Assembly (NCBI RefSeq): GCF_004342115.1
Contig: NZ_SMAC01000001.1
Coordinates: forward strand, 1-64,000
Source: Mannheimia haemolytica
GTDB lineage: Bacteria; Pseudomonadota; Gammaproteobacteria; Enterobacterales; Pasteurellaceae
DNA: 64,000 bases
Direction: 5' to 3'
Under the pieces are notes generated by a model. The model was not told the origin of the DNA. It made no database searches and worked only from the letters and a program-made list of their open reading frames with translations. Below, one piece after another: positions 26,824 to 44,860 of the stretch. Numbering within the stretch: the stretch's first letter is position 1; the number at the start of each line of letters is the position of its first letter. The position numbers were made by a program, and so were the translations under genes.

Positions 26824-26839
26824 TGAAATAAATTTTTCA
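26824..26839. promoter_or_regulatory. IolR-type operator, iolB/iolA region
   Basis: TGAAATAAATTTTTCA, a 16-bp near-palindrome. It is the exact reverse complement of the element found at 28665 and 38518. Confidence 0.72.
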
Positions 26840-28664: not shown

Positions 28665-28680
28665 TGAAAAATTTATTTCA
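28665..28680. promoter_or_regulatory. IolR-type operator upstream of ABC importer
   Basis: TGAAAAATTTATTTCA, identical to the element at 38518 and the exact reverse complement of that at 26824. It ties the ABC importer to the inositol genes. Confidence 0.74.
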
Positions 28681-34486: not shown

Positions 34487-35497
34487 TTACGCCACTTCAC
34501 TCAATTTCACTGGTCGGTTTTCTTCCAGTGATTTTTTCGCAGCTAAGGCAATAAGTACCGGTTGTAAGCCGTCATTGCCGTTTACTAACGTTGGTTTGTC
34601 GTTTACCACAGAATCTACGAAACAGCTGATTTCATCGGCGAAAGATTGCATATAACGTTCTAAGAAGAAGTATTTTGGTTTTTCCGCCACCACGCCGTTT
34701 TCACCTGAGAATACGGCAGTTGAGCCGGTATCATTAGTGATATGGATTGCCCCTTTCGAGCCGAACACTTCCGCACGTTGGTCGTAGCCGTAGGCAGCTT
34801 TGCGACTGTTGTCGATTACGCCGATTGCTCCGTTTTTCAGTTTCAACGTGATAACGGCAGTATCAATATCGCCCGCTTTGCCGATTTCAGGGTTTACTAA
34901 TACGGTGCCGACTGCAAACACTTCTTCCACTTCGCTGCCGGATAAATAACGAATCATATCGAAGTCGTGAATGGTCATATCAAAGAACATTCCGCCGGAG
35001 ACTTTCACATATTCGATTGGCGGGGCTTCCGGATCACGAGAGGTTACTCGGATAACGTGCGGTTCGCCGATGTCGCCTGCCGCCACACGGTCTTTAATCG
35101 CCTTGAAGTTGTGGTCGAAGCGGCGGTTAAAGCCCACTTGGAATTTTACACCGGCTTTTTCGACTGCACTCAATACTTCACGGATTTTAGCTGGGTCTGC
35201 ATCTACCGGTTTTTCACAGAAAACGTGTTTGCCAGCCTGTGCTGCCTCAATCGAAATCGGAGCGTGAGTGTTGGTGGAAGAGCAGACCAATACCGCATCA
35301 ATTTCCGGATCTTGCAGGATTTTTTTATAGTCATCATAAACTTCCGGAATACCCATCGATTTTGCCCAAGCGGTCAATTCTTCGGTAATTTTTACATCAG
35401 AGATTGCTTTGATTTCAGCACCTTTGACATATTTGCTAATACTTTCAGAATGCACACGTCCAATACGGCCTGCACCAATAATACCTACTTTTAACAT
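34487..35497 (-). CDS. iolG: myo-Inositol 2-dehydrogenase
   Basis: A 336-aa enzyme that oxidises myo-inositol to 2-keto-myo-inositol (scyllo-inosose) with NAD+, the first step of the pathway. Rossmann motif GIIGAGRIGRVHSE, EKPVD (Lys96), and Asp173 and His177 in FFDMTIHDFD correspond to the Lys-Asp-His catalytic set of B. subtilis IolG. The start is set at 35497 (MLKVGIIG), with AGGAG overlapping the end of iolE one nucleotide upstream of the ATG region. A longer in-frame extension is rejected because it is iolE coding sequence. Confidence 0.94.
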   Translation of the reverse strand: MLKVGIIGAGRIGRVHSESISKYVKGAEIKAISDVKITEELTAWAKSMGIPEVYDDYKKILQDPEIDAVLVCSSTNTHAPISIEAAQAGKHVFCEKPVDADPAKIREVLSAVEKAGVKFQVGFNRRFDHNFKAIKDRVAAGDIGEPHVIRVTSRDPEAPPIEYVKVSGGMFFDMTIHDFDMIRYLSGSEVEEVFAVGTVLVNPEIGKAGDIDTAVITLKLKNGAIGVIDNSRKAAYGYDQRAEVFGSKGAIHITNDTGSTAVFSGENGVVAEKPKYFFLERYMQSFADEISCFVDSVVNDKPTLVNGNDGLQPVLIALAAKKSLEENRPVKLSEVA

Positions 35498-35498
35498 A

Positions 35499-36395
35499 TT
35501 AAACTCCTGCGGTTTCACGGATATATTTTCTGCCTTTGAGGGCGTATTCAAACGGGTTGGCAAGTGCCGGATCTTGTTCGGCTTCTACAACCATCCAGCC
35601 TTTGTAGTCGTGTTTTTCTAAAATATCGAAAATCGGACGGAAATCAATGACACCATCGCCCGGTACAGTAAAGGTGCCTTTTTTCACGCCTTCTAAAAAG
35701 CTTAAATCTTTTGCTTTTACTTCCGCCACGACTTCATCACGCACATCTTTTAAGTGAACGTGGATAATACGGTCGATATATTTTTCCAGTACGCCGAGCA
35801 TCGCTTTTTGGCAGCCTTCGGAATAGTACAAATGCCCTGAATCGAACAACAGATAGACATCGTCATTCACTTCTGCCATATAGCGATCGACCTCTTCGGG
35901 TGTTTGAATACCGGTTCCCATATGGTGATGCAGGCAGACTTTCATTCCTTTTTCGGCGGCAAGTTTCGCCAATTCGTTATAGCCTTCTGCCATACGTTTC
36001 CAATCTTCATCGTTGAAAATCGGTTTTTCTTTGAACACAGATTTGGTTGTGCCTTGAATACTACGGCTCTGTTCGGAACAGCCGATCACTTTTGCCCCCA
36101 TTGCATGCAAGAAATCACGATGTTTGATGAACTCGGCAATGGTCTCTTCCCGTTTACCGTCCACAAAGAAGGTGCTGAACCACGCATTACAGATTTGAAT
36201 GCCACGCACGTCCAGTTTGTGTTTTAACACGGCAACATCACGCGGATATTTATTACCCACTTCACAGCCCGTGTAGCCGGCAAGTGCCATCTCACTCACA
36301 CACTGCTCGAAAGTGTTTTCCGCTCCCAGTTCCGGCAGGTCATCGTTCGTCCAACCGATTGGGGCAATGCCTAATTGAATGTTTTCAGCTTTCAT
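35499..36395 (-). CDS. iolE: Inosose dehydratase IolE
   Basis: A 298-aa xylose-isomerase-like TIM-barrel enzyme that dehydrates 2-keto-myo-inositol to a trihydroxycyclohexane-dione. Start [24 protein letters not shown] is diagnostic of IolE. Metal-site residues lie in CLHHHMGTG and [13 protein letters not shown], followed by HVHLKDVR and [11 protein letters not shown]. Its stop is one base from the iolG start, so the two are translationally coupled. It lies 126 nt downstream of iolD in the same direction. Confidence 0.95.
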
Positions 36396-36521: not shown

Positions 36522-38456
36522 CTAATACTTCCGAGCCTTAGCTAACTGCTCTTCGGAGCGTTGGCGGGCTTGTTGAATACGCTCGCTCTCTGACACTTCC
36601 GCGACACCAACGTGCCACCAGCAGCCATAGCCGTGAGCCATTGTTTTCGGCAACACTTTAATATCGATTAAGGTAGAAACGGTCTGTTTTTTCGCATCAT
36701 CAAGGGCGGCACGCAATTCGGCTTCGTTAGTTACCCGATAGGTTTTGCAGCCGTATGCTTCGGCGTTTTTGGCAAAATCAATCGGCACTAAACCGCCGTT
36801 GAGTTGGTTAGTTTCGCCATTGCGGAAGCGGAATTCCGTACCGAAACTGTCCATACCGTTGCCGATTTGCAGGTTGTTGATACAGCCGTTTGCCATATTG
36901 TCGAACAGCACCACGTTGATTTTTTTGCCCTCTTGAATTGAGGTCACTAATTCGGTGTGTGCCATTAAGTAAGAGCCGTCCCCCAGCAAGGCATAGACCT
37001 CTTGTTCGGGGCGGGCAATTTTCACGCCGACTGCCGCACTCACTTCATAGCCCATACAGGAGTAGCCATATTCAAGGTGGTAAGTCTCTTCACCTTTACT
37101 TAACCAAGTGCGTTGTAAATCACCCGGCAAACTTCCGGCGGCGGCAACAATAATCGCATTGTTATCAATGGTTTCATTCACAATACCCAGCACTTGGGTT
37201 TGGGTGAGCTGGGAACCGGTGAGCTGAATAAATTCATTGTGAACCGCTTTATGATCAAGATTATCGTTAATTTCAGGGGTGAAATCAGGGTGATATTGCA
37301 CAGCGCGCAGGCGTTGAATTTCATCAGCAAAATCCGCTTTCGCCTGTGAAATTTCATTCTCCCATTGAGCTTGATAATCAGTAGGAATGGCTTGGCTTAA
37401 CGCCTCTAATGCAGTTTTTGCATCGGCAACCAGTTGCACGCCGTCTAATTTGTACGCATCAAAACGTGCCACATTAATGTTCAAAAACTGCACGTTTGGG
37501 TTTTGGAAAATCCATTTGGAAGAAGTCGTGAAGTCGGTGTAGCGTGTACCAATGCCAATCACTAAATCCGCTTCTTTTGCCAGACGGTTTGCCGCTAAAC
37601 AACCGGTTTCTCCCACTCCGCCTACATTCAATGCGTGATCGGACACCACCGCACTTTTACCCGCTTGGGTTTCAGCAAATGGAATGCCGAACTGTTTAGC
37701 AAATTTTTGCAGAATTTGACCCGCTTGCGAGTAGCGAACACCGCCACCGCAGACAATCAGCGGTTTTTTCTTGGTTTGAATTAATGTTACCGCTTGCTTA
37801 ATCATCGCTGTTGTCGGCGGTGTACGCTCTAAGCGATGCACTCGTTTTTGCAGGAAGCTGTTCGGGAAATCAAAACTCTCCGCTTGTACATCTTGCGGCA
37901 GAGCAATGGTGACAGCACCGGTTTCAGCAGGGTCGGTCAGCACACGAAACGCATTGATACAAGCACTCATTAACTGCTCAGGGCGTTGCACTCTATCCCA
38001 ATATTTACTGACGGCACGGAACGCATCGTTAGTGCTAATGCTTAAATCGTAAGGTTGTTCGATTTGTTGCAGTACCGGATCCGGCTGGCGGGTCGCAAAC
38101 ACATCGCCCGGTAATAAAAGAAGAGGAATACGGTTCGCTGTTGCCGTTGCCGCAGCCGTAACCATATTTGCCGCCCCCGGCCCGACCGAGGAAGTACAGG
38201 CAATAATTCTTTGACGCAGATTTTGCTTAGCAAAGCCCATCGCCAAATGTGCCATACCTTGCTCATTTCTGCCTTGGTAGAGCGTTAAACCACCGGCATT
38301 TTGAGCAAGCGCCTGACCTATTCCCAGCACATTGCCGTGGCCGAAAATAGCGGCAACACCGTGAACGAATTTAATCTCTTTGCCGTCCACGTCTAAATAT
38401 TGATTATCCAAAAATTGCACTAACGCCTGTGCAACCGTTAAACGAGTAGTCTGCAT
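36522..38456 (-). CDS. iolD: THcHDO hydrolase IolD (ThDP enzyme)
   Basis: A 644-aa thiamine-diphosphate enzyme that hydrolyses 3D-(3,5/4)-trihydroxycyclohexane-1,2-dione to 5-deoxy-glucuronate, opening the inositol ring. The three domains of the acetolactate-synthase fold are present. The C-terminal ThDP site is [20 protein letters not shown] with the following ND-type [13 protein letters not shown]. The ending [16 protein letters not shown] is typical of IolD. It is divergent from iolC across a 267-nt region with two IolR-type operators and two CRP sites. Confidence 0.95.
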
Positions 38457-38517: not shown

Positions 38518-38533
38518 TGAAAAATTTATTTCA
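38518..38533. promoter_or_regulatory. IolR-type operator, iolD side
   Basis: TGAAAAATTTATTTCA, identical to the element at 28665, 62 nt upstream of the iolD start. Confidence 0.74.
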
Positions 38534-38654: not shown

Positions 38655-38670
38655 TGAAATAAAAATTTCA
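38655..38670. promoter_or_regulatory. IolR-type operator, iolC side
   Basis: TGAAATAAAAATTTCA, a close variant of the 16-bp element, 54 nt before iolC. Confidence 0.68.
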
Positions 38671-38723: not shown

Positions 38724-40640
38724 ATGGCAACAGTTAATCATCAAGATCGTCCATTGGATCTTATCTGTTTAGGGCGTGTGGCGGTGGACTTTTATGGGCA
38801 ACAAATCGGTTCCCGTTTGGAAGAGATGACCACATTTTCAAAATACCTCGGCGGCTCGTCAGGCAATGTGGCTTACGGTACGGCGGTGCAAGGTTTACGT
38901 TCTTCAATGCTGGCAAGGGTCGGTGACGAACATATGGGGCGTTTTCTACGTGAAGAGCTACAAAGCGTAGGCGTGGACACCAGCCATTTAATTACCGATA
39001 AAGAACGCTTAACTGCACTGGTTATTCTCGGCATTAAAGATAAAGAGACTTTTCCGCTGATTTTCTATCGTGATAACTGTGCGGATATGGCAATCACCAA
39101 AGACGATTTTAGCGAAGCCTATATTGCTTCCAGCCGTTGCTTAGCAATTACCGGCACGCACCTGTCAAACCCTAAAACCCGTGAAGCTGTGCTGACCGCA
39201 CTCGAATATGCGGGTAGAAATGAGGTAAAACGAGCGTTAGATATTGATTATCGCCCTGTGTTATGGGGATTAACCTCACTCGGTGATGGCGAAACCCGTT
39301 ATATAGACAGTGCCGAAGTCACCAAATCGCTACAAGAAGTATTGCACCATTTCGATCTGATTGTCGGCACAGAGGAAGAATTTCATATCGCAGGCGGTTC
39401 GACCGATACTCTCACTGCACTCAAAAATGTGCGTAAAGTCTCTAATGCCGTATTAGTGTGCAAACGTGGGGCATTAGGGTGTTCAGTATTTGAAGGCGAG
39501 CTGCCGAATGATTTAGACGGTGGCTTGAATGTGTACGGCGTGCGTGTAGAAGTGCTGAATGTGCTGGGTGCAGGCGATGCTTTTATGTCGGGCTTACTGC
39601 GTGGCTACTTAAATAACGAAGGTTGGGAACAAGCGTGCCACTATGCCAATGCGTGCGGAGCGTTAGTGGTATCTCGTCACGGCTGTTCACCGGCAATGCC
39701 GACCAAACGTGAACTTGACGATTATTTAACCCGTGCAGAGAGTGTACCACGTCCGGATTTAGATGAGCGTTTAAACCACTTACACCGTGTCACCACCCGC
39801 AAAAAACAGTGGGAAAATCTCTGTATTTTTGCTTTTGATCACCGCAAACAGTTGGTGGATATGGCAAATAAAGTCGGTGCAGATCTTGCTCGCATACCGA
39901 AACTGAAACAGCTGCTATTAAAAGCGATGGAACAAACCGCAACTCAATCCGGCTTACCACAAAATCAAGCAGGGATCCTAGCCGATACCACTTTCGGGCA
40001 AGATGTACTTAATGAGATTACCGGCAAAGATTACTGGATTGCCCGCCCGATTGAAGAGCCGTCTTCCCGCCCGCTGGAATTAGAGTATGGAGATTTAGGC
40101 TCTCAGCTAGCATCATTCCCACGCGATCACGTCATCAAATGCTTGGCATTTTACCACCCGAATGATGAAAGCGGTTTAAAAGCCCGCCAAGATCGCAAGT
40201 TAAAAGAGGTGTATCAAGCCTGTTGCCGTACCGGTCACGAGCTATTGTTGGAAATTATTCTGCCTGCTGATATGCCACAGAGTGAGGCTTTCTATAACCA
40301 AGCGATAGCACATTTCTACCAACTTGGCATTAAGCCGGAATGGTGGAAATTGCCGGATGTTTCTCGCGCACAATGGCAAGCGATTTCCGCCACCATTGAG
40401 GCAAACGATCCGGACTGTCGTGGTATTTTAATTTTAGGTTTAGATGCCCCGTTAGAGGTGTTTAAAGACACCTTTGAACAGGCAAAAGGCTGTGAGAAAG
40501 TGAAAGGCTTTGCAGTCGGCCGCACCATTTTCGGTGAACCGTCCGAAAAATGGCTTGCCGGTGAATTGGACGACAATACCTTGATTTCTGCGGTATCGGA
40601 GAAATATCGCACTTTAATCGATCTCTGGCAACAACGTTAA
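38724..40640 (+). CDS. iolC: 5-Dehydro-2-deoxygluconokinase fused to DUF2090
   Basis: A 638-aa fusion. Residues about 10-335 are a PfkB/ribokinase domain with GGSSGNVAYGTAVQGL and the ATP/anion-hole motif GAGDAFMSGLLRG. It phosphorylates 2-deoxy-5-keto-gluconate. Residues about 350-638 form a DUF2090 domain related to class I aldolase folds, containing FAFDHRKQL and ILILGLDAPLEVF. In this fused form the second half is commonly proposed to do the IolJ aldolase step, and no separate iolJ lies in the window. AAGGAG precedes the ATG. Confidence 0.92.
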   Translation: MATVNHQDRPLDLICLGRVAVDFYGQQIGSRLEEMTTFSKYLGGSSGNVAYGTAVQGLRSSMLARVGDEHMGRFLREELQSVGVDTSHLITDKERLTALVILGIKDKETFPLIFYRDNCADMAITKDDFSEAYIASSRCLAITGTHLSNPKTREAVLTALEYAGRNEVKRALDIDYRPVLWGLTSLGDGETRYIDSAEVTKSLQEVLHHFDLIVGTEEEFHIAGGSTDTLTALKNVRKVSNAVLVCKRGALGCSVFEGELPNDLDGGLNVYGVRVEVLNVLGAGDAFMSGLLRGYLNNEGWEQACHYANACGALVVSRHGCSPAMPTKRELDDYLTRAESVPRPDLDERLNHLHRVTTRKKQWENLCIFAFDHRKQLVDMANKVGADLARIPKLKQLLLKAMEQTATQSGLPQNQAGILADTTFGQDVLNEITGKDYWIARPIEEPSSRPLELEYGDLGSQLASFPRDHVIKCLAFYHPNDESGLKARQDRKLKEVYQACCRTGHELLLEIILPADMPQSEAFYNQAIAHFYQLGIKPEWWKLPDVSRAQWQAISATIEANDPDCRGILILGLDAPLEVFKDTFEQAKGCEKVKGFAVGRTIFGEPSEKWLAGELDDNTLISAVSEKYRTLIDLWQQR

Positions 40641-40656
40641 TCATATTGCTTTAAGT

Positions 40657-40700
40657 GAAAACCCCTTAGCTTATGATATTAAGCAAGGGGTTTTGTTTTG
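40657..40700 (+). terminator. iolC terminator
   Basis: AAAACCCCTT with GCTTA and TTAAGC with AGGGGTTTT form an interrupted long stem (about 40658-40694), then GTTTTG. Confidence 0.8.
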
Positions 40701-40801: not shown

Positions 40802-40823
40802 AAGTGTGATGAAGTTCACATTT
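40802..40823. promoter_or_regulatory. CRP site upstream of fucosidase gene
   Basis: TGTGA (40805-40809), TGAAGT, TCACA (40816-40820), a perfect core with ATTT flank. Confidence 0.75.
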
Positions 40824-40833
40824 CATACATAAA

Positions 40834-40877: not shown

Positions 40878-40893
40878 TGGAAAATGTATTTCA
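40878..40893. promoter_or_regulatory. Degenerate IolR-type operator before fucosidase gene
   Basis: TGGAAAATGTATTTCA, two mismatches from TGAAAAATTTATTTCA, 36 nt before the start codon. It is the weakest of the six copies. Confidence 0.5.
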
Positions 40894-40928
40894 GTTTAGT
40901 TCTATTTAGATTCAATAGGAGTCTGTGT

Positions 40929-42269
40929 ATGAGTTGCAACACTTCACCAAAACGTTTCCACGCCAGTTGGGAGTCGATCAAACAGCACCAAGTACCAGAG
41001 TGGTATGAAGATGCTAAGTTTGGGATTTTTATTCACTGGGGGATTTACTCCGTACCCGCCTTTGCCCCACCGACCTGTCAGTTAGGTGAAATTGATATTG
41101 ATGAACAGTGGTTCTGTAATAACCCTTATGCAGAATGGTATTTTAATTCCATCAATGTCAAAAAAGGCCCGACCTACGAACATCATATCAAAACTTATGG
41201 CGAATCCTTTGCCTATAACGACTTCCTGCCACTATGGAAAGCGGAAAAATGGCAACCAGCAGAATGGGCGAAACTGTTTGCCAAAGCTGGCGCCAAATAT
41301 GTGGTATTAACCACCAAACATCACGATGGTTTCTGTCTCTATCCAAGTAAATATACCGATTTCAACTGCATGCAAGCCGGACCGAAGCGGGATTTAATGG
41401 GCGAGCTGACTGAAAATGTGCGGGAGCAAGGCTTAAAAATGGGCGCTTACTACTCGGGCATTATCGATTGGACTTATTCCTCTGCCCCGATTTTCACCGA
41501 AAGTCAAAACTTCTCAAACGCTTGCCCGACTTACGAATACGCTGACTACGCCTATAAACAAGTGGTAGAGCTGATCGACCGCTATAAACCAGATGTATTG
41601 TGGAATGATATTGGCTGGCCAAAAGTGGGCGAGCATATGTTACCACATCTATTTGCTCATTATTACAACAGCGTTCAAGAGGGCGTAGTGGACGACCGCT
41701 GGAACAAACTATGGTGCGATTTCACCTCCAAAGAATACAAACACGGCGTGGCTTCCCGTGATAAGAAATGGGAAATGTGCCGTGGTATGGGCTTATCGTT
41801 CGGTTATAACCAGGTAGAAGACGAAAGCCATTTGATTTCGGTGAAAGACTTGATTTCCCTATTGGTAGAAACCGTAGCCGACAACGGCAATTTATTGCTG
41901 AATATCGGCCCGAAAGCAGATGGCACTATTCCGCAAGAGCAAGTTGAACGCTTATTAGCACTGGGGAGCTGGCTGGAAATAAATGGAGAGGGAATCTATA
42001 AATCCCGTTGTAGCCAACACCAAACCGAGCAAATCGGTGATGTAACCTATCGTTATACCAAAGTTGGGGCGGATCTCTATCTTTACATTGATGGCTTAAC
42101 CGAAGCCCAAATCAGCTTGCCACTGTCAGTTTATGGTGAGCTACAAGCACTCAATACCGACCTGAAATTTACCATTGAAAACACTGCACAAGGCAGAGTG
42201 TTACATATTCAAAACTACCAACCGGATTGGTATGTATTAGGCTTTAAAATTGCAGATGGGGAGAAATAG
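40929..42269 (+). CDS. Cytoplasmic alpha-L-fucosidase (GH29)
   Basis: A 446-aa glycoside hydrolase family 29 enzyme releasing L-fucose. Family features are FGIFIHWGIYSVPAFAPP, TTKHHDGFCLYPSKYTDF (substrate-binding His pair near residue 131) and PDVLWNDIGWP, with Asp227 as the likely nucleophile. No signal peptide is present when the start is set at ATG 40929 (MSCNTSPKRF), which has AGGAG 7 nt upstream. The enzyme is therefore cytoplasmic and needs an imported substrate. A PTS EIIC gene follows after 2 nt, a likely route. Mannheimia haemolytica is known to be alpha-fucosidase positive. Confidence 0.9.
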   Translation: MSCNTSPKRFHASWESIKQHQVPEWYEDAKFGIFIHWGIYSVPAFAPPTCQLGEIDIDEQWFCNNPYAEWYFNSINVKKGPTYEHHIKTYGESFAYNDFLPLWKAEKWQPAEWAKLFAKAGAKYVVLTTKHHDGFCLYPSKYTDFNCMQAGPKRDLMGELTENVREQGLKMGAYYSGIIDWTYSSAPIFTESQNFSNACPTYEYADYAYKQVVELIDRYKPDVLWNDIGWPKVGEHMLPHLFAHYYNSVQEGVVDDRWNKLWCDFTSKEYKHGVASRDKKWEMCRGMGLSFGYNQVEDESHLISVKDLISLLVETVADNGNLLLNIGPKADGTIPQEQVERLLALGSWLEINGEGIYKSRCSQHQTEQIGDVTYRYTKVGADLYLYIDGLTEAQISLPLSVYGELQALNTDLKFTIENTAQGRVLHIQNYQPDWYVLGFKIADGEK

Positions 42270-42271
42270 GT

Positions 42272-43612
42272 ATGTCTGTTTCACAACGCTTTATTAACTT
42301 TATGAATACCCACGTTGCCCCAGTGGCACGCCGAATGGAAAATCAACCGCATATTTCCGCTATTCGAGACGGTTTTATTGTAGTGTTACCATTCTTAATT
42401 GTCGGCAGCTTTATTATGATTTTGCTAATTCCGCCATTTGATGAAAATACCCAAAATGCTTTCGGTCAAGCTTGGTGGCGTTTTGCTAACTGGGCAAGTC
42501 CTTACGGTTGGAATTTCTTCCAAATGTCGTTTAATGCGATTTCATTATTTACCTCTGCCAGTATCGCCTACAACCTTGCCAAAGCCTATAAAAGAGAGCC
42601 CCTGCCAGCGGCATTTCTCTCGGTAATGGCATTTTTGTTAGTGGCTGCACCGGTCAAAGACGGAATGATGGATATTAAATTCTTTGGCGGTATTGGGCTA
42701 TTCTCTGCGATTTTTATTGCCATTTATTCGGTAGAAATGACCCGCTTGTTGGAGTTCTTAAAAATTAAAATCCGCTTACCGAAAGAAGTGCCGCACGCTG
42801 TAGCAGAATCTCTGAATATCGTGATTCCAATTTTAGCGATTTTACTGACTCTCTATCCGTTTGCCATTTGGGTGGAAAGTGCCACAGGTCGTAATATTCC
42901 ACAACTAATTATGGACTTTATGGCGCCATTGATTGCTGTGAGTGACTCGCTAGGGGCAATTTGCTTGTTCGTTATTGCTACCCATTTGCTCTGGTTCTTA
43001 GGCATTAACGGCTCATTGGTACTAATGCAACTTTGGACACCATTCCTACTGCAAAATATGGCGGCAAACTTAGCAGCATTCCAAGCTGGTGAACCGCTCC
43101 CCTTTATCATCACCAATTCCTTCTGGGATTTCTATATCGTACACGGGGCAAGTGGTGGTGTAATAGCCTTGGCATTCCTGCTGGTACGCAGTAAATCGGC
43201 ACACTTACGCTCTATCGGTAAAATCGGCTTGGTTCCGTCCTTCTTCTCTATCGGTGAACCAATTGTGTATGGTGTGCCAATGGTGGTTAATCCGCTGTTC
43301 TTTATCCCGCTGATTTTCGCACCACTAGCGAATGCGGTTATTGCCTACCTGATTTTAGATTTTAACCTTATTCACCGTGTTTACTTGATGGCACCGTGGA
43401 CAACACCGGCACCGATTGGGGCATATCTGGTTTCTGCCGGTGATATTTGGGCACCAATTTTAAGTATTGCACTGATTATTTTGGATATTGTGATCTACTA
43501 TCCATTCTTCAAAATGTATGAAAAAGTCTGCGTCGAGAAAGAAAAAGCACAAAATCTAGATGAAAAAGCACAACAGGAGTTGATAGAAAAAGCACGAATG
43601 GCAGCACAATAA
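42272..43612 (+). CDS. PTS EIIC component, lactose/cellobiose family
   Basis: A 446-aa inner-membrane sugar channel of the PTS Lac family (CelB/ChbC type) with about ten spans. Substrate-site segments are FWDFYIVHGASGG and SIGEPIVYGVPMVVNPLF, and a Lys/Glu-rich tail ends the protein. It is coupled to the fucosidase gene (2-nt gap). No Lac-type EIIA or EIIB is in the window, so it must borrow them from elsewhere or work with unusual partners. By analogy to the Lactobacillus casei AlfB/AlfEFG system it may import a fucosylated disaccharide; this is inference. Confidence 0.88.
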   Translation: MSVSQRFINFMNTHVAPVARRMENQPHISAIRDGFIVVLPFLIVGSFIMILLIPPFDENTQNAFGQAWWRFANWASPYGWNFFQMSFNAISLFTSASIAYNLAKAYKREPLPAAFLSVMAFLLVAAPVKDGMMDIKFFGGIGLFSAIFIAIYSVEMTRLLEFLKIKIRLPKEVPHAVAESLNIVIPILAILLTLYPFAIWVESATGRNIPQLIMDFMAPLIAVSDSLGAICLFVIATHLLWFLGINGSLVLMQLWTPFLLQNMAANLAAFQAGEPLPFIITNSFWDFYIVHGASGGVIALAFLLVRSKSAHLRSIGKIGLVPSFFSIGEPIVYGVPMVVNPLFFIPLIFAPLANAVIAYLILDFNLIHRVYLMAPWTTPAPIGAYLVSAGDIWAPILSIALIILDIVIYYPFFKMYEKVCVEKEKAQNLDEKAQQELIEKARMAAQ

Positions 43613-43635: not shown

Positions 43636-43666
43636 AGGGGTTAATCGAAAGATTAGCCCTTATTTT
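43636..43666 (+). terminator. Terminator of fucosidase-EIIC operon
   Basis: AGGGGTTAATC, GAAA loop, GATTAGCCCT (43651-43660) with one bulge, followed by TATTTTT. Confidence 0.8.
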
Positions 43667-43711: not shown

Positions 43712-43717
43712 TATAAT
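43712..43717 (+). promoter_or_regulatory. -10 box of RpiR-type regulator gene
   Basis: TATAAT 32 nt before the ATG, sharing its last T with the IolR-type operator that starts at 43717. Operator binding here would block the promoter. Confidence 0.6.
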
Positions 43718-43732
43718 GAAATAAAAAATTCA
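43717..43732. promoter_or_regulatory. IolR-type operator at the regulator's own promoter
   Basis: TGAAATAAAAAATTCA, one mismatch from the copy at 38655. It abuts the -10 box, which suggests autorepression. Confidence 0.62.
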
Positions 43733-43749: not shown

Positions 43750-44574
43750 ATGAATGGACCTACTCAATTAGCACATTTTCAAGAACAAATCCGAAAAGAG
43801 TATGACGGACTAAGTAAACGTTTAAAACAAGTGGCACAGTATGTGCTGGATAATGGCAACAGCGTGGTGTTTGATACGGTTTCTACCATTGCTGAACGGG
43901 CTGATGTTCCTCCTTCAACCTTAATCCGTTTTGCGAATGCATTTGGATTTAGCGGTTTTAATGAAATTAAACAGCTTTATCGCCAAGATATGATGGAAGG
44001 CACATCACGTTACACCGAACGTGTGCAACTTTTTCGTCAAATTGAACCGCTTGATGAGCAAAACAGTGAGCTCAATCATATTTTAGATGTGTTCGTACAG
44101 GGTAATACGCAGGCACTGCAACAGTTATCGACACAAATCAGCGAAGAGCAGTTAGCACAAACGGTGGATATTTTACACAATGCTAAACGCATTTTTATTG
44201 TGGGCTTAAAACGCTCATTCAGCATTGCGAACTACCTAAACTATGCGTTACACCATTTGGATTATGATGTTTTTATGATTGATGGTTCCGGCGGTATGTT
44301 TGACGAGCAATTAAGCCGAATTCGTGAAGGTGATGCGGTGATTGCCGTGAGCTTTTCTCCGTATGCGAATGAAACGCTCAATGTGGTGACAGCAACCGCC
44401 AGACCGGGGGTGAAACACATTGCGATCACCGATAGCCAACTTAGCCCGCTCCTTTCATTTAGCGATGTGTCGTTTATTATTAAGGAAGCACAGGTGAGTG
44501 GTTTTCGATCCCAGTGTGCTACAATGACGCTTGCACAAACGATTGCCGTTTCACTGGCGTTGAAAAAAGCCTAG
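43750..44574 (+). CDS. iolR: RpiR/MurR-family regulator, probable IolR
   Basis: A 274-aa protein. The N-terminal HTH_6 domain (about residues 1-80) holds IAERADVPPSTLIRFANAFGFSGFNEIK. A SIS sugar-phosphate-sensing domain (about 120-265) holds RIFIVGLKRSFSIANYLNYAL. RpiR-type IolR repressors control inositol genes in Salmonella and other bacteria. Its place at the end of the iol island, and the palindrome before it and before most iol units, support the name. The ligand is probably an inositol-pathway phosphate. Confidence 0.8.
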   Translation: MNGPTQLAHFQEQIRKEYDGLSKRLKQVAQYVLDNGNSVVFDTVSTIAERADVPPSTLIRFANAFGFSGFNEIKQLYRQDMMEGTSRYTERVQLFRQIEPLDEQNSELNHILDVFVQGNTQALQQLSTQISEEQLAQTVDILHNAKRIFIVGLKRSFSIANYLNYALHHLDYDVFMIDGSGGMFDEQLSRIREGDAVIAVSFSPYANETLNVVTATARPGVKHIAITDSQLSPLLSFSDVSFIIKEAQVSGFRSQCATMTLAQTIAVSLALKKA

Positions 44575-44617: not shown

Positions 44618-44860
44618 TTAGCCGATTAAAGCGTTAATTTCATCACGATACTGCCCGGCTTTTGCACCAAAAATAATTTGCTGCGTATCACCGACTTTAA
44701 TGACATCAACCGCCCCAAGCTTTTTCAGTGCCGACTTATTTAATAAACCGTTGTTATGTAACACCACACGTAAACGGGTTAAACAAGCTTCAACTTGCTT
44801 GATATTTTCTTTGTTTCCTAAAGCATTAATAATTTCTAGAATGATAGATTTATCAGACAT
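44618..44860 (-). CDS. Stand-alone PTS EIIB domain (glucose type)
   Basis: An 80-aa single-domain protein of the glucose/sucrose EIIB family. The phosphorylated Cys is Cys26 in ACLTRLRVVL, and the C-terminal KVGDTQQIIFGAKA segment is present. Such domains normally are part of a larger EIICB. Here it stands alone, convergent with iolR. It is not of the Lac type that would match the EIIC at 42272, so it may serve a glucose-type EIIC elsewhere or act in signalling. AGGAAAT lies upstream of the ATG. Confidence 0.82.
   Translation of the reverse strand: MSDKSIILEIINALGNKENIKQVEACLTRLRVVLHNNGLLNKSALKKLGAVDVIKVGDTQQIIFGAKAGQYRDEINALIG

Follow-up and report, generated by a model that had tools for sequence, protein, structure and literature searches.

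Introduction

In Lactobacillus casei, the alf-2 genes couple AlfH, a permease of the major facilitator superfamily (MFS), to AlfC, an intracellular GH29 alpha-L-fucosidase, and the whole fucoside is imported before it is cut (PMC6960285). Here we describe a gene pair of the same plan, a transporter gene coupled to that of a predicted cytoplasmic GH29 enzyme, in a stretch of 64,000 nucleotides from Mannheimia haemolytica (contig NZ_SMAC01000001.1, positions 1 to 64,000; hereafter the window). The pair stands between the inositol gene iolC and a gene for an RpiR/SIS regulator (Table 1). Unlike in alf-2, the transporter resembles a Lac-family EIIC of the phosphotransferase system (PTS) and not an MFS permease; the alf-2 regulator is AlfR2 rather than IolR, and L. 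casei excretes the fucose instead of catabolising it (PMC6960285). AlfC is a remote relative of the window GH29 enzyme (6o18, E 6e-18). The L. casei AlfB gene is reportedly coupled with a PTS.

In a plasmid collection, the best matches to the transporter belong to Lac-family PTS operons of Pantoea and Enterobacter, whose EIICs are of the same family and length and about 43% identical. These operons encode EIIA and EIIB beside the EIIC, together with a 6-phospho-beta-glucosidase or ROK gene, whereas the window pair has neither Lac-type partner and its hydrolase is of GH29. Nearest outside the clade of the pair, among the matches of a peptide-pattern scan, are EIICs of Photobacterium and Pseudoteredinibacter (L177, L178 and L180, about 58-67% identity; here and below, G and L numbers are our handles for genomes and loci). 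They too lie near a fucosidase-like hydrolase, and no open reading frame (ORF) of at least 80 aa in 17 kb matched Lac-type EIIA or EIIB. Their hydrolase, however, has 662-668 aa and GHL6, not GH29, as its best Pfam match (searched for L177 and L180), and the stretch contains no iol operon. At L177 there are, in addition, genes for an alpha-galactosidase of family GH36, for an FGGY kinase and for a protein of 549 aa without a Pfam match.

IolR of Salmonella belongs to the RpiR family. In the Salmonella iol regulon, IolR represses the iol promoters until an intermediate of inositol catabolism counteracts it (PMC5349611). Unlike the locus described here, that regulon includes no fucosidase or EIIC named in the available part of the report (PMC5349611).

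The explanation of the locus that we favour overall, and consider moderately probable from the sequence comparisons below, is a module for fucoside import and hydrolysis under the control of CRP and IolR. The EIIC-like protein would import a small alpha-L-fucoside, probably unphosphorylated, which the cytoplasmic GH29 enzyme would split. Released fucose would enter a FucIKA pathway encoded elsewhere in the genome, and released inositol would be taken up by the iol genes of the window. CRP would raise transcription and the RpiR-type IolR would repress it through an operator at the GH29 promoter, with the module opening while inositol is being used. The direction and energetics of transport given here are likewise predictions.

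The fucosidase and transporter genes

The source genome comprises 2.58 Mb in 71 contigs, and its relatives are Pasteurellaceae. The first protein of the pair matches the GH29 profile PF01120 at 361.6 bits, against a cut-off of 25.2, and among sequences of solved structure it matches 1hl8 and 2zwy best, both of them fucosidase chains (E ~4e-138). In the alignment with 1hl8 it keeps the PDVLWND and KWE segments around the catalytic Asp and Glu, the nucleophile and acid of the Thermotoga enzyme. The catalytic domain begins close to the N-terminus and no signal peptide was seen by eye; together with the enzyme family, this supports the cytoplasmic location proposed in a preliminary description of the locus. 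We set the start codon at 40929, preceded by an AGGAG box; an alternative in-frame ATG at 40884 falls inside the operator at 40878-40893.

The second protein matches the lactose/cellobiose family IIC model TIGR00410 at 309.5 bits (cut-off 236). Its scores with the specific cellobiose, lactose and chitobiose models are under their cut-offs, and 3qnq, a cellobiose-type IIC, is the sole solved sequence matched at E 0.001. An AlphaFold model of it (mean pLDDT 67.6, below 50 at 325-331) was not used for any conclusion. Both genes lie on the forward strand with 2 nt between the GH29 stop (42269) and the EIIC ATG (42272); the coupling and the placement between iolC and the regulator gene stand as first described. 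Terminator-like hairpins follow both iolC (40658-40694) and the EIIC gene (43636-43661), which makes it probable that the two genes are transcribed as a unit separate from iolC and rpiR. The former hairpin was found by folding and was not listed by a simple hairpin scan of the region, which returned 8 terminator-like hairpins against 4.1 in shuffles. The two products would, with reasonable likelihood, form one catabolic module.

Co-occurrence of the pair with inositol and fucose genes

Co-occurrence was assessed in 140 Pasteurellaceae genomes with xylA as the sole control gene. EIIC matches at 1e-20 are found in 22 genomes, 19 with orthologues (81-100% identity) and 3 with only ~30% identical paralogues. 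GH29 is present in exactly the same 19 genomes, adjacent to the EIIC gene at all 19 loci. Every pair genome has iolE, which occurs in 58 of the 140 (19/19 against 39/121 others, Fisher p 7e-9, a value that, like the other per-genome p values here, overstates the case because the genomes share ancestry). Since genomes are not independent, we put weight on the genus-level figure (iolE in 11/11 pair genera and in 24/43 genera overall, p 4e-4) and on the separate gene arrangements described below. The control shows no bias, with xylA in 12/19 pair genomes and 64/121 others (p 0.28).

The fucose isomerase gene fucI is found in 80 of the 140 genomes. It is complete, here meaning matched over more than 500 residues, in sixteen pair genomes; G098 has a fragment, and G038 and G113 hold the pair and iolE without fucI. 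Among fucI genomes, counting the G098 fragment, iolE is present in 17/17 with the pair and 28/63 without it (p 1e-5); among iolE genomes, fucI is present in 17/19 with the pair and 28/39 without it (p 0.12). The pair would appear to depend on iol and only slightly, beyond that, on fuc, a tentative hint of inositol in the substrate. In a sample of 369 Gammaproteobacteria genomes the pair is rare: an EIIC search at 1e-90 matched the source genome only. A contig scan with two exact peptide patterns gave 16 loci.

In 8 of the 19 genomes no more than 30 kb separate the pair from iolE, in 6 no more than 15 kb separate it from fucI, and 13 show one linkage or the other. At seven loci it is directly beside iol genes, in two arrangements. 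The order iolC-GH29-EIIC-rpiR is shared by the window, two other genomes of its genus (G091, G095) and Muribacter (G098). In three genomes that we label g36, among which is the L169 record, the pair adjoins iolGEDC and a gene that we take to be Gfo/Idh-like. A third arrangement is seen in a metagenome-assembled genome of Cardiobacteriaceae (L176), in which iolC, iolD, GH29, EIIC, iolE, iolB, rpiR and iolG follow in the same orientation. Each gene is named after the window protein that it matches best by BLAST; the RpiR protein, only 28% identical, is of the RpiR family by Pfam.

In three Pasteurellaceae genera the pair is inside a fucose operon. The order in Aggregatibacter kilianii (L054) is fucR-fucI-fucK-GH29-EIIC-fucU-fucA-fucP-fucO by NCBIfam names, with the fucR match under the model cut-off. 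By ORF clustering, fucR, fucI, fucK and fucA surround the pair in L055 and L056, with a fucU-like ORF in L056 and none in L055. In Testudinibacter G035, fuc genes, the pair, rpiR and iol genes succeed one another within ~47 kb. Between rpiR and the iol genes of that genome (C11, ~27-74 kb; L208-L210), a GH4 glycosidase gene stands with that of an MFS_2 transporter; it may encode another glycosyl-inositol activity. In a tree of the EIICs, read for clades only and not as a count of gains, with label counts that omit unlabelled rows, the iol-linked loci fall in three places, and L176 is placed next to the fuc-operon clade (support 94/98, just under the mark).

CRP-type and IolR-type sites

The RpiR/SIS regulator is very probably IolR, since a relative at 1e-40 is present in 57 of the 58 iolE-bearing family genomes, often adjoining iolC or an iolB-like gene; it is also present in 2 genomes without iolE. 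The dyad of the iol promoters is TGAAA-N6-TTTCA. With at most one mismatch, 32 such sites lie in the iolD/iolC regions of 19 loci, against 2.0 in shuffles, and a matrix built from these regions was then run on other promoters. It finds 8 sites of at least 8.5 bits in the window, 7 of them at iol, GH29 or rpiR promoters (2 of the 7 being training sites). The site at the GH29 promoter, TGGAAAATGTATTTCA, is one mismatch from the dyad, and 0.8% of shuffles contain one as good.

This degenerate operator copy, which had been recognised in the window from the start, recurs in relatives. The GH29 upstream regions of the loci reach at least 8.9 bits in 9/16 cases and at least 6.9 bits in 13/16, against 0/151 and 3/151 control regions. 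Controls were upstream gaps of at least 100 nt before ORFs of at least 120 aa in the window and 49 loci, excluding ORFs that match window query genes or that stand no more than 700 nt from an iol or pair gene; four regions preceding paralogous EIICs, the best with 8.3 bits, fall away with them. In this comparison the ORF caller took the upstream ATG in the window and an earlier start in L039, and their score of 11.3 there refers to another site; a run of 500 shuffles with the 40929 start gives 12.3 bits for the window and 14.9 bits for L039. Even at loci whose iolE lies on a different contig, namely L045 (Bisgaardia) and L044 and L052 (Pasteurella testudinis), an operator-like site stands upstream of GH29.

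The CRP site, described as perfect, is indeed an exact TGTGA-N6-TCACA. The window has 8 CRP-type dyads with at most one mismatch, against 2.1 expected. Upstream of GH29 the site is exact in 9 of 19 regions (window, L039, L040, L041 and L045-L049) and one mismatch off in 7, counts that for the relatives carry no shuffle baseline; the GH29 upstream regions of the three fuc-operon loci have no CRP-type site. Control of the pair by CRP and by the RpiR protein is predicted from these sites. The joint control with inositol use proposed earlier gains support from the comparison, in the iolE genes of all 19 pair genomes, the operators off iol contigs and L176.

It is most improbable that the pair came to lie beside iol through an accidental insertion and that its operator is an AT-rich dyad arisen by chance. 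Such an accident would be consistent with the dyad count in the window alone, which is near chance (9 with at most one mismatch, 6.9 expected) and which we do not use as proof. It could also accommodate the three pair-less genomes in which iolC adjoins rpiR (G092, G093, G032), implying that either this genome gained the pair or those three lost it, and the genomes that show no linkage (6/19). It would not account for iolE in every pair genome, for three different arrangements beside or in iol, or for operator-like sites on contigs without iol, and none of the 151 controls equals what 9 of 16 GH29 regions show.

PTS partners of the transporter

The preliminary description called the pair a fucosidase-PTS pair and suggested a genome search for Lac-type EIIA and EIIB; neither was found in the source genome, and the term PTS has become doubtful. 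By profile search, Lac-type EIIA (PF02255) is absent from the source genome and, counting it, was not found in 15 of the 19 pair genomes. It occurs in 7 of the 140 genomes, always with another EIIC no more than 3 kb away. The search for EIIB covered the source genome, where none of four PF02302 matches is a Lac-type EIIB: two are ascorbate IIB, and two lie in frames of 568 and 636 aa that also hold an EIIC domain and, judged by size, belong to fructose and mannitol systems. None of the clustered ORFs of 15 pair loci grouped with Lac-type EIIBs, and no ORF of L176, L177, L178 or L180 matched Lac-type EIIA or EIIB. Because Lac-type EIIA is lacking in the source genome and in 14 of the 18 other pair genomes, the EIIC probably works without the usual PTS partners.

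Two motifs of the transporter have also changed. Among 17 EIICs with an EIIA nearby, 13 have His in a GIHG-like motif and 16 have Asn before Glu in an FNINE-like motif. All 19 pair EIICs, as well as those of L176 and L177, read GING and FSIGE, with Asn at the His position and Gly at the Asn position. L178 and L180 read GIPG and FSISD, with Pro at the His position, Ser at the Asn position and Asp for Glu. Three EIICs without EIIA or EIIB in the fetched stretch give a mixed picture: the Asn before Glu persists in L219 and L223 but is Ala in L220, and L219 shows Asn in place of His. In E. coli IICGlc, T297 and E298 hold sugar hydroxyls including OH-6 (PMC11393339), and we infer that they correspond to the FNINE-like motif. 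The changes fit an altered substrate site and lost phosphotransfer. They are no proof of uncoupling, because a Listeria EIIC with EIIA nearby (L224) has both positions changed. Loss of the His was rejected as a diagnostic of uncoupling, Asn being present in 4 of the 17 EIICs with EIIA nearby.

The earlier statement that no EIIA or EIIB lies nearby holds for Lac-type EIIA, even genome-wide, and needs correction for EIIB: a lone Glc-type EIIB domain is encoded 1 kb from the EIIC gene. The EIIC could still act in a PTS with borrowed EIIA and EIIB, for instance this lone EIIB with EIIA-Glc, which we consider unlikely. The lone EIIB has an ACLTRLR segment around its Cys, and Asn at the His position is, as noted, found in EIICs with an adjacent EIIA. 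Against borrowing, a lone short-frame EIIB is present in only 5 of the 19 pair genomes; its close relatives follow rpiR, also in the three pair-less genomes G092, G093 and G032; and Glc-type (PF00367) and Lac-type (PF02302) EIIBs are different Pfam families. GH29 enzymes are, moreover, known to act on unphosphorylated fucosides. As a general partner of the EIIC, the lone EIIB was rejected on the 5/19 count.

Lone Glc-type EIIBs in short frames (80-125 aa) were counted by eye in 21 of the 140 genomes, within 10 kb of fucI in 11 and beside rpiR in 7. The source genome has both kinds, the one in the window and one at G000:C9:69348-69572 (L124). A regulatory role of these proteins in fucose and inositol control is possible. 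A separate Lac-type PTS cluster is present in L057, L058 and L064 (G026, G083, G035), with EIIB, EIIA and an EIIC bearing a GINS motif; it also encodes an ORF of 279-311 aa and two proteins of ~320 and 480-495 aa.

Fate of the products and phenotype

The fate of the products had been left open, and a search for fucI and fucK was proposed. Both are present on another contig of the source genome (L124), together with fucR, fucU, fucA and fucO (NCBIfam; fucA and fucR each fall under one model's cut-off, and fucA is over that of another model), which settles the fate of fucose. ORFs that by eye resemble an ABC transporter lie there too. The genome has both the iol and the fuc pathways.

The alpha-fucosidase test is positive in Mannheimia haemolytica and M. 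glucosida and negative in M. ruminalis (PMC1949873). A negative result also sets M. indoligenes and M. varigena apart from M. haemolytica, M. indoligenes being L-fucose positive (PMC12802175). In genomes of the genus fucI is present in 7/7 and the pair in 3/7, which would agree with these phenotypes. Phocoenobacter atlanticus NVIO9100, apparently the strain of the pair record L169, is alpha-fucosidase positive; P. uteri and the other P. atlanticus subspecies are negative and P. skyensis is variable (PMC12281759). Histophilus somni has fucose and myo-inositol genes (PMC3339403).

Substrate

A fucosylated inositol is the best single fit for the substrate, a tentative choice, because its two products would feed the two pathways adjoining the module and because the pair is confined to iol genomes, in iol and fuc operons, twice with iolE and without fucI. 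All other fucosyl oligosaccharides, taken together, have a somewhat less than even chance. PTS transporters of this kind phosphorylate the C6 hydroxyl. The loss of PTS partners would make sense with a fucosyl (6-deoxy) unit, since it has no C6 hydroxyl. A dedicated fucosylated-inositol pathway, with the EIIC acting outside the PTS, GH29 cleavage and the halves passing to FucIKA and Iol, is a speculative extension; as part of it the module may move between iol and fuc operons and between families, which we hold to be similarly doubtful. Glycosyl-inositols are known from human urine as sialyl-galactosyl forms (PMC11907402); the main text of that review, so far as available, contains no word beginning 'fucos'.

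The pair could instead import fucosylated host oligosaccharides such as fucosyl-N-acetylglucosamine (fucosyl-GlcNAc) or fucosyl-galactose, with inositol serving as a niche cue through IolR. We give this a substantial chance that stops short of even, and it is compatible with our best explanation except for the substrate. L. casei GH29 enzymes act intracellularly on fucosyl-GlcNAc compounds (PMC6960285, PMC10629584), and three genera have the pair in their fucose operon, where it lacks the operator. Host oligosaccharides as substrate do not predict, however, that even the fuc-operon pairs are confined to iol genomes (3/3), or that the pair lies inside the iol operon of L176; and clustering of 15 pair loci revealed, besides iol and fuc genes, no neighbour common beyond close relatives.

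Several observations weigh against a fucoside module under CRP and IolR control, in addition to the shared ancestry and the motif exceptions given above. Among the matches listed in the literature searched, there was no report of a fucosyl-inositol or of a fucosidase tied to inositol catabolism. Neither iolE nor fucI is close to the pair in six of the 19 genomes: G083 (Histophilus), G042 (Actinobacillus porcinus), G044, G033 (Bisgaardia), and G011 and G038 (Pasteurella testudinis). When the best GH29-promoter site of each of 19 loci was compared with 500 shuffles of the same region, the frequency was at most 0.01 in only 6 (window, L039, L040, L045, L046, L052), 0.02-0.06 in 7, and above 0.06 in 6, namely L047, L048, L049 and the three fuc-operon loci. 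The matrix scan gave no good operator at the GH29 promoter of these last three, where the gap before GH29 is only 47-68 nt; one of the three g36 genomes has a good one, and that of L049 is weak. Four of the 19 pair genomes have a Lac-type EIIA elsewhere, beside another EIIC. The GH29 frame of G079 is broken in two pieces (L055 10385-11708), next to an open EIIC frame. In H. somni 2336 the fucosidase gene HSM_0748, which has a full-length transcript, is reported under non-functional start codons (PMC3262788); G083 is another strain of H. somni, and its GH29 frame is open.

Features of the locus

Table 1. Features of the window in and around the GH29-EIIC pair.
Feature	Position	Strand	Basis
Operator between divergent genes presumed from their sequences to be iolB-like and iolA-like	26824..26839	.	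dyad + matrix
Operator upstream of a gene presumed to be ABC binding-protein-like	28665..28680	.	dyad + matrix
iolG	34487..35494	-	TIGR04380
iolE	35499..36395	-	TIGR04379
iolD	36522..38456	-	TIGR04377
Operator, iolD/iolC divergent region (training site)	38518..38533	.	matrix
Second operator, iolD/iolC region (training site)	38655..38670	.	matrix
iolC, bifunctional kinase/aldolase	38724..40640	+	NF047869
Terminator-like hairpin between iolC and GH29	40658..40694	+	fold, -20.3 kcal/mol, z -4.4, short T run after
CRP-type TGTGA-N6-TCACA, exact, upstream of GH29	40805..40820	.	dyad count
Second operator-like site, overlapping the CRP-type site	40810..40825	.	11.3 bits
IolR-type operator, GH29 promoter, 1 mismatch to dyad	40878..40893	.	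12.3 bits
GH29 alpha-L-fucosidase, 446 aa	40929..42269	+	Pfam PF01120, 1hl8 alignment
Lac-family EIIC-like transporter, 446 aa, motifs GING + FSIGE	42272..43612	+	TIGR00410, 3qnq alignment, motif table
Terminator-like hairpin after EIIC	43636..43661	+	hairpin scan
Operator-like site upstream of rpiR	43717..43732	.	15.3 bits
RpiR/SIS regulator, presumed IolR	43750..44574	+	Pfam PF01418 + PF01380
Lone Glc-type EIIB domain (80 aa), a companion of rpiR and not of the GH29-EIIC pair	44618..44860	-	Pfam PF00367

Implications

If the favoured explanation is true, a fucosidase would be added to the inositol regulon, and a membrane subunit of the PTS would have been reused as a plain transporter. It would point to an unrecognised nutrient of animal-associated bacteria, and the alpha-fucosidase test, which separates species of Mannheimia and Phocoenobacter, would gain a genetic basis.

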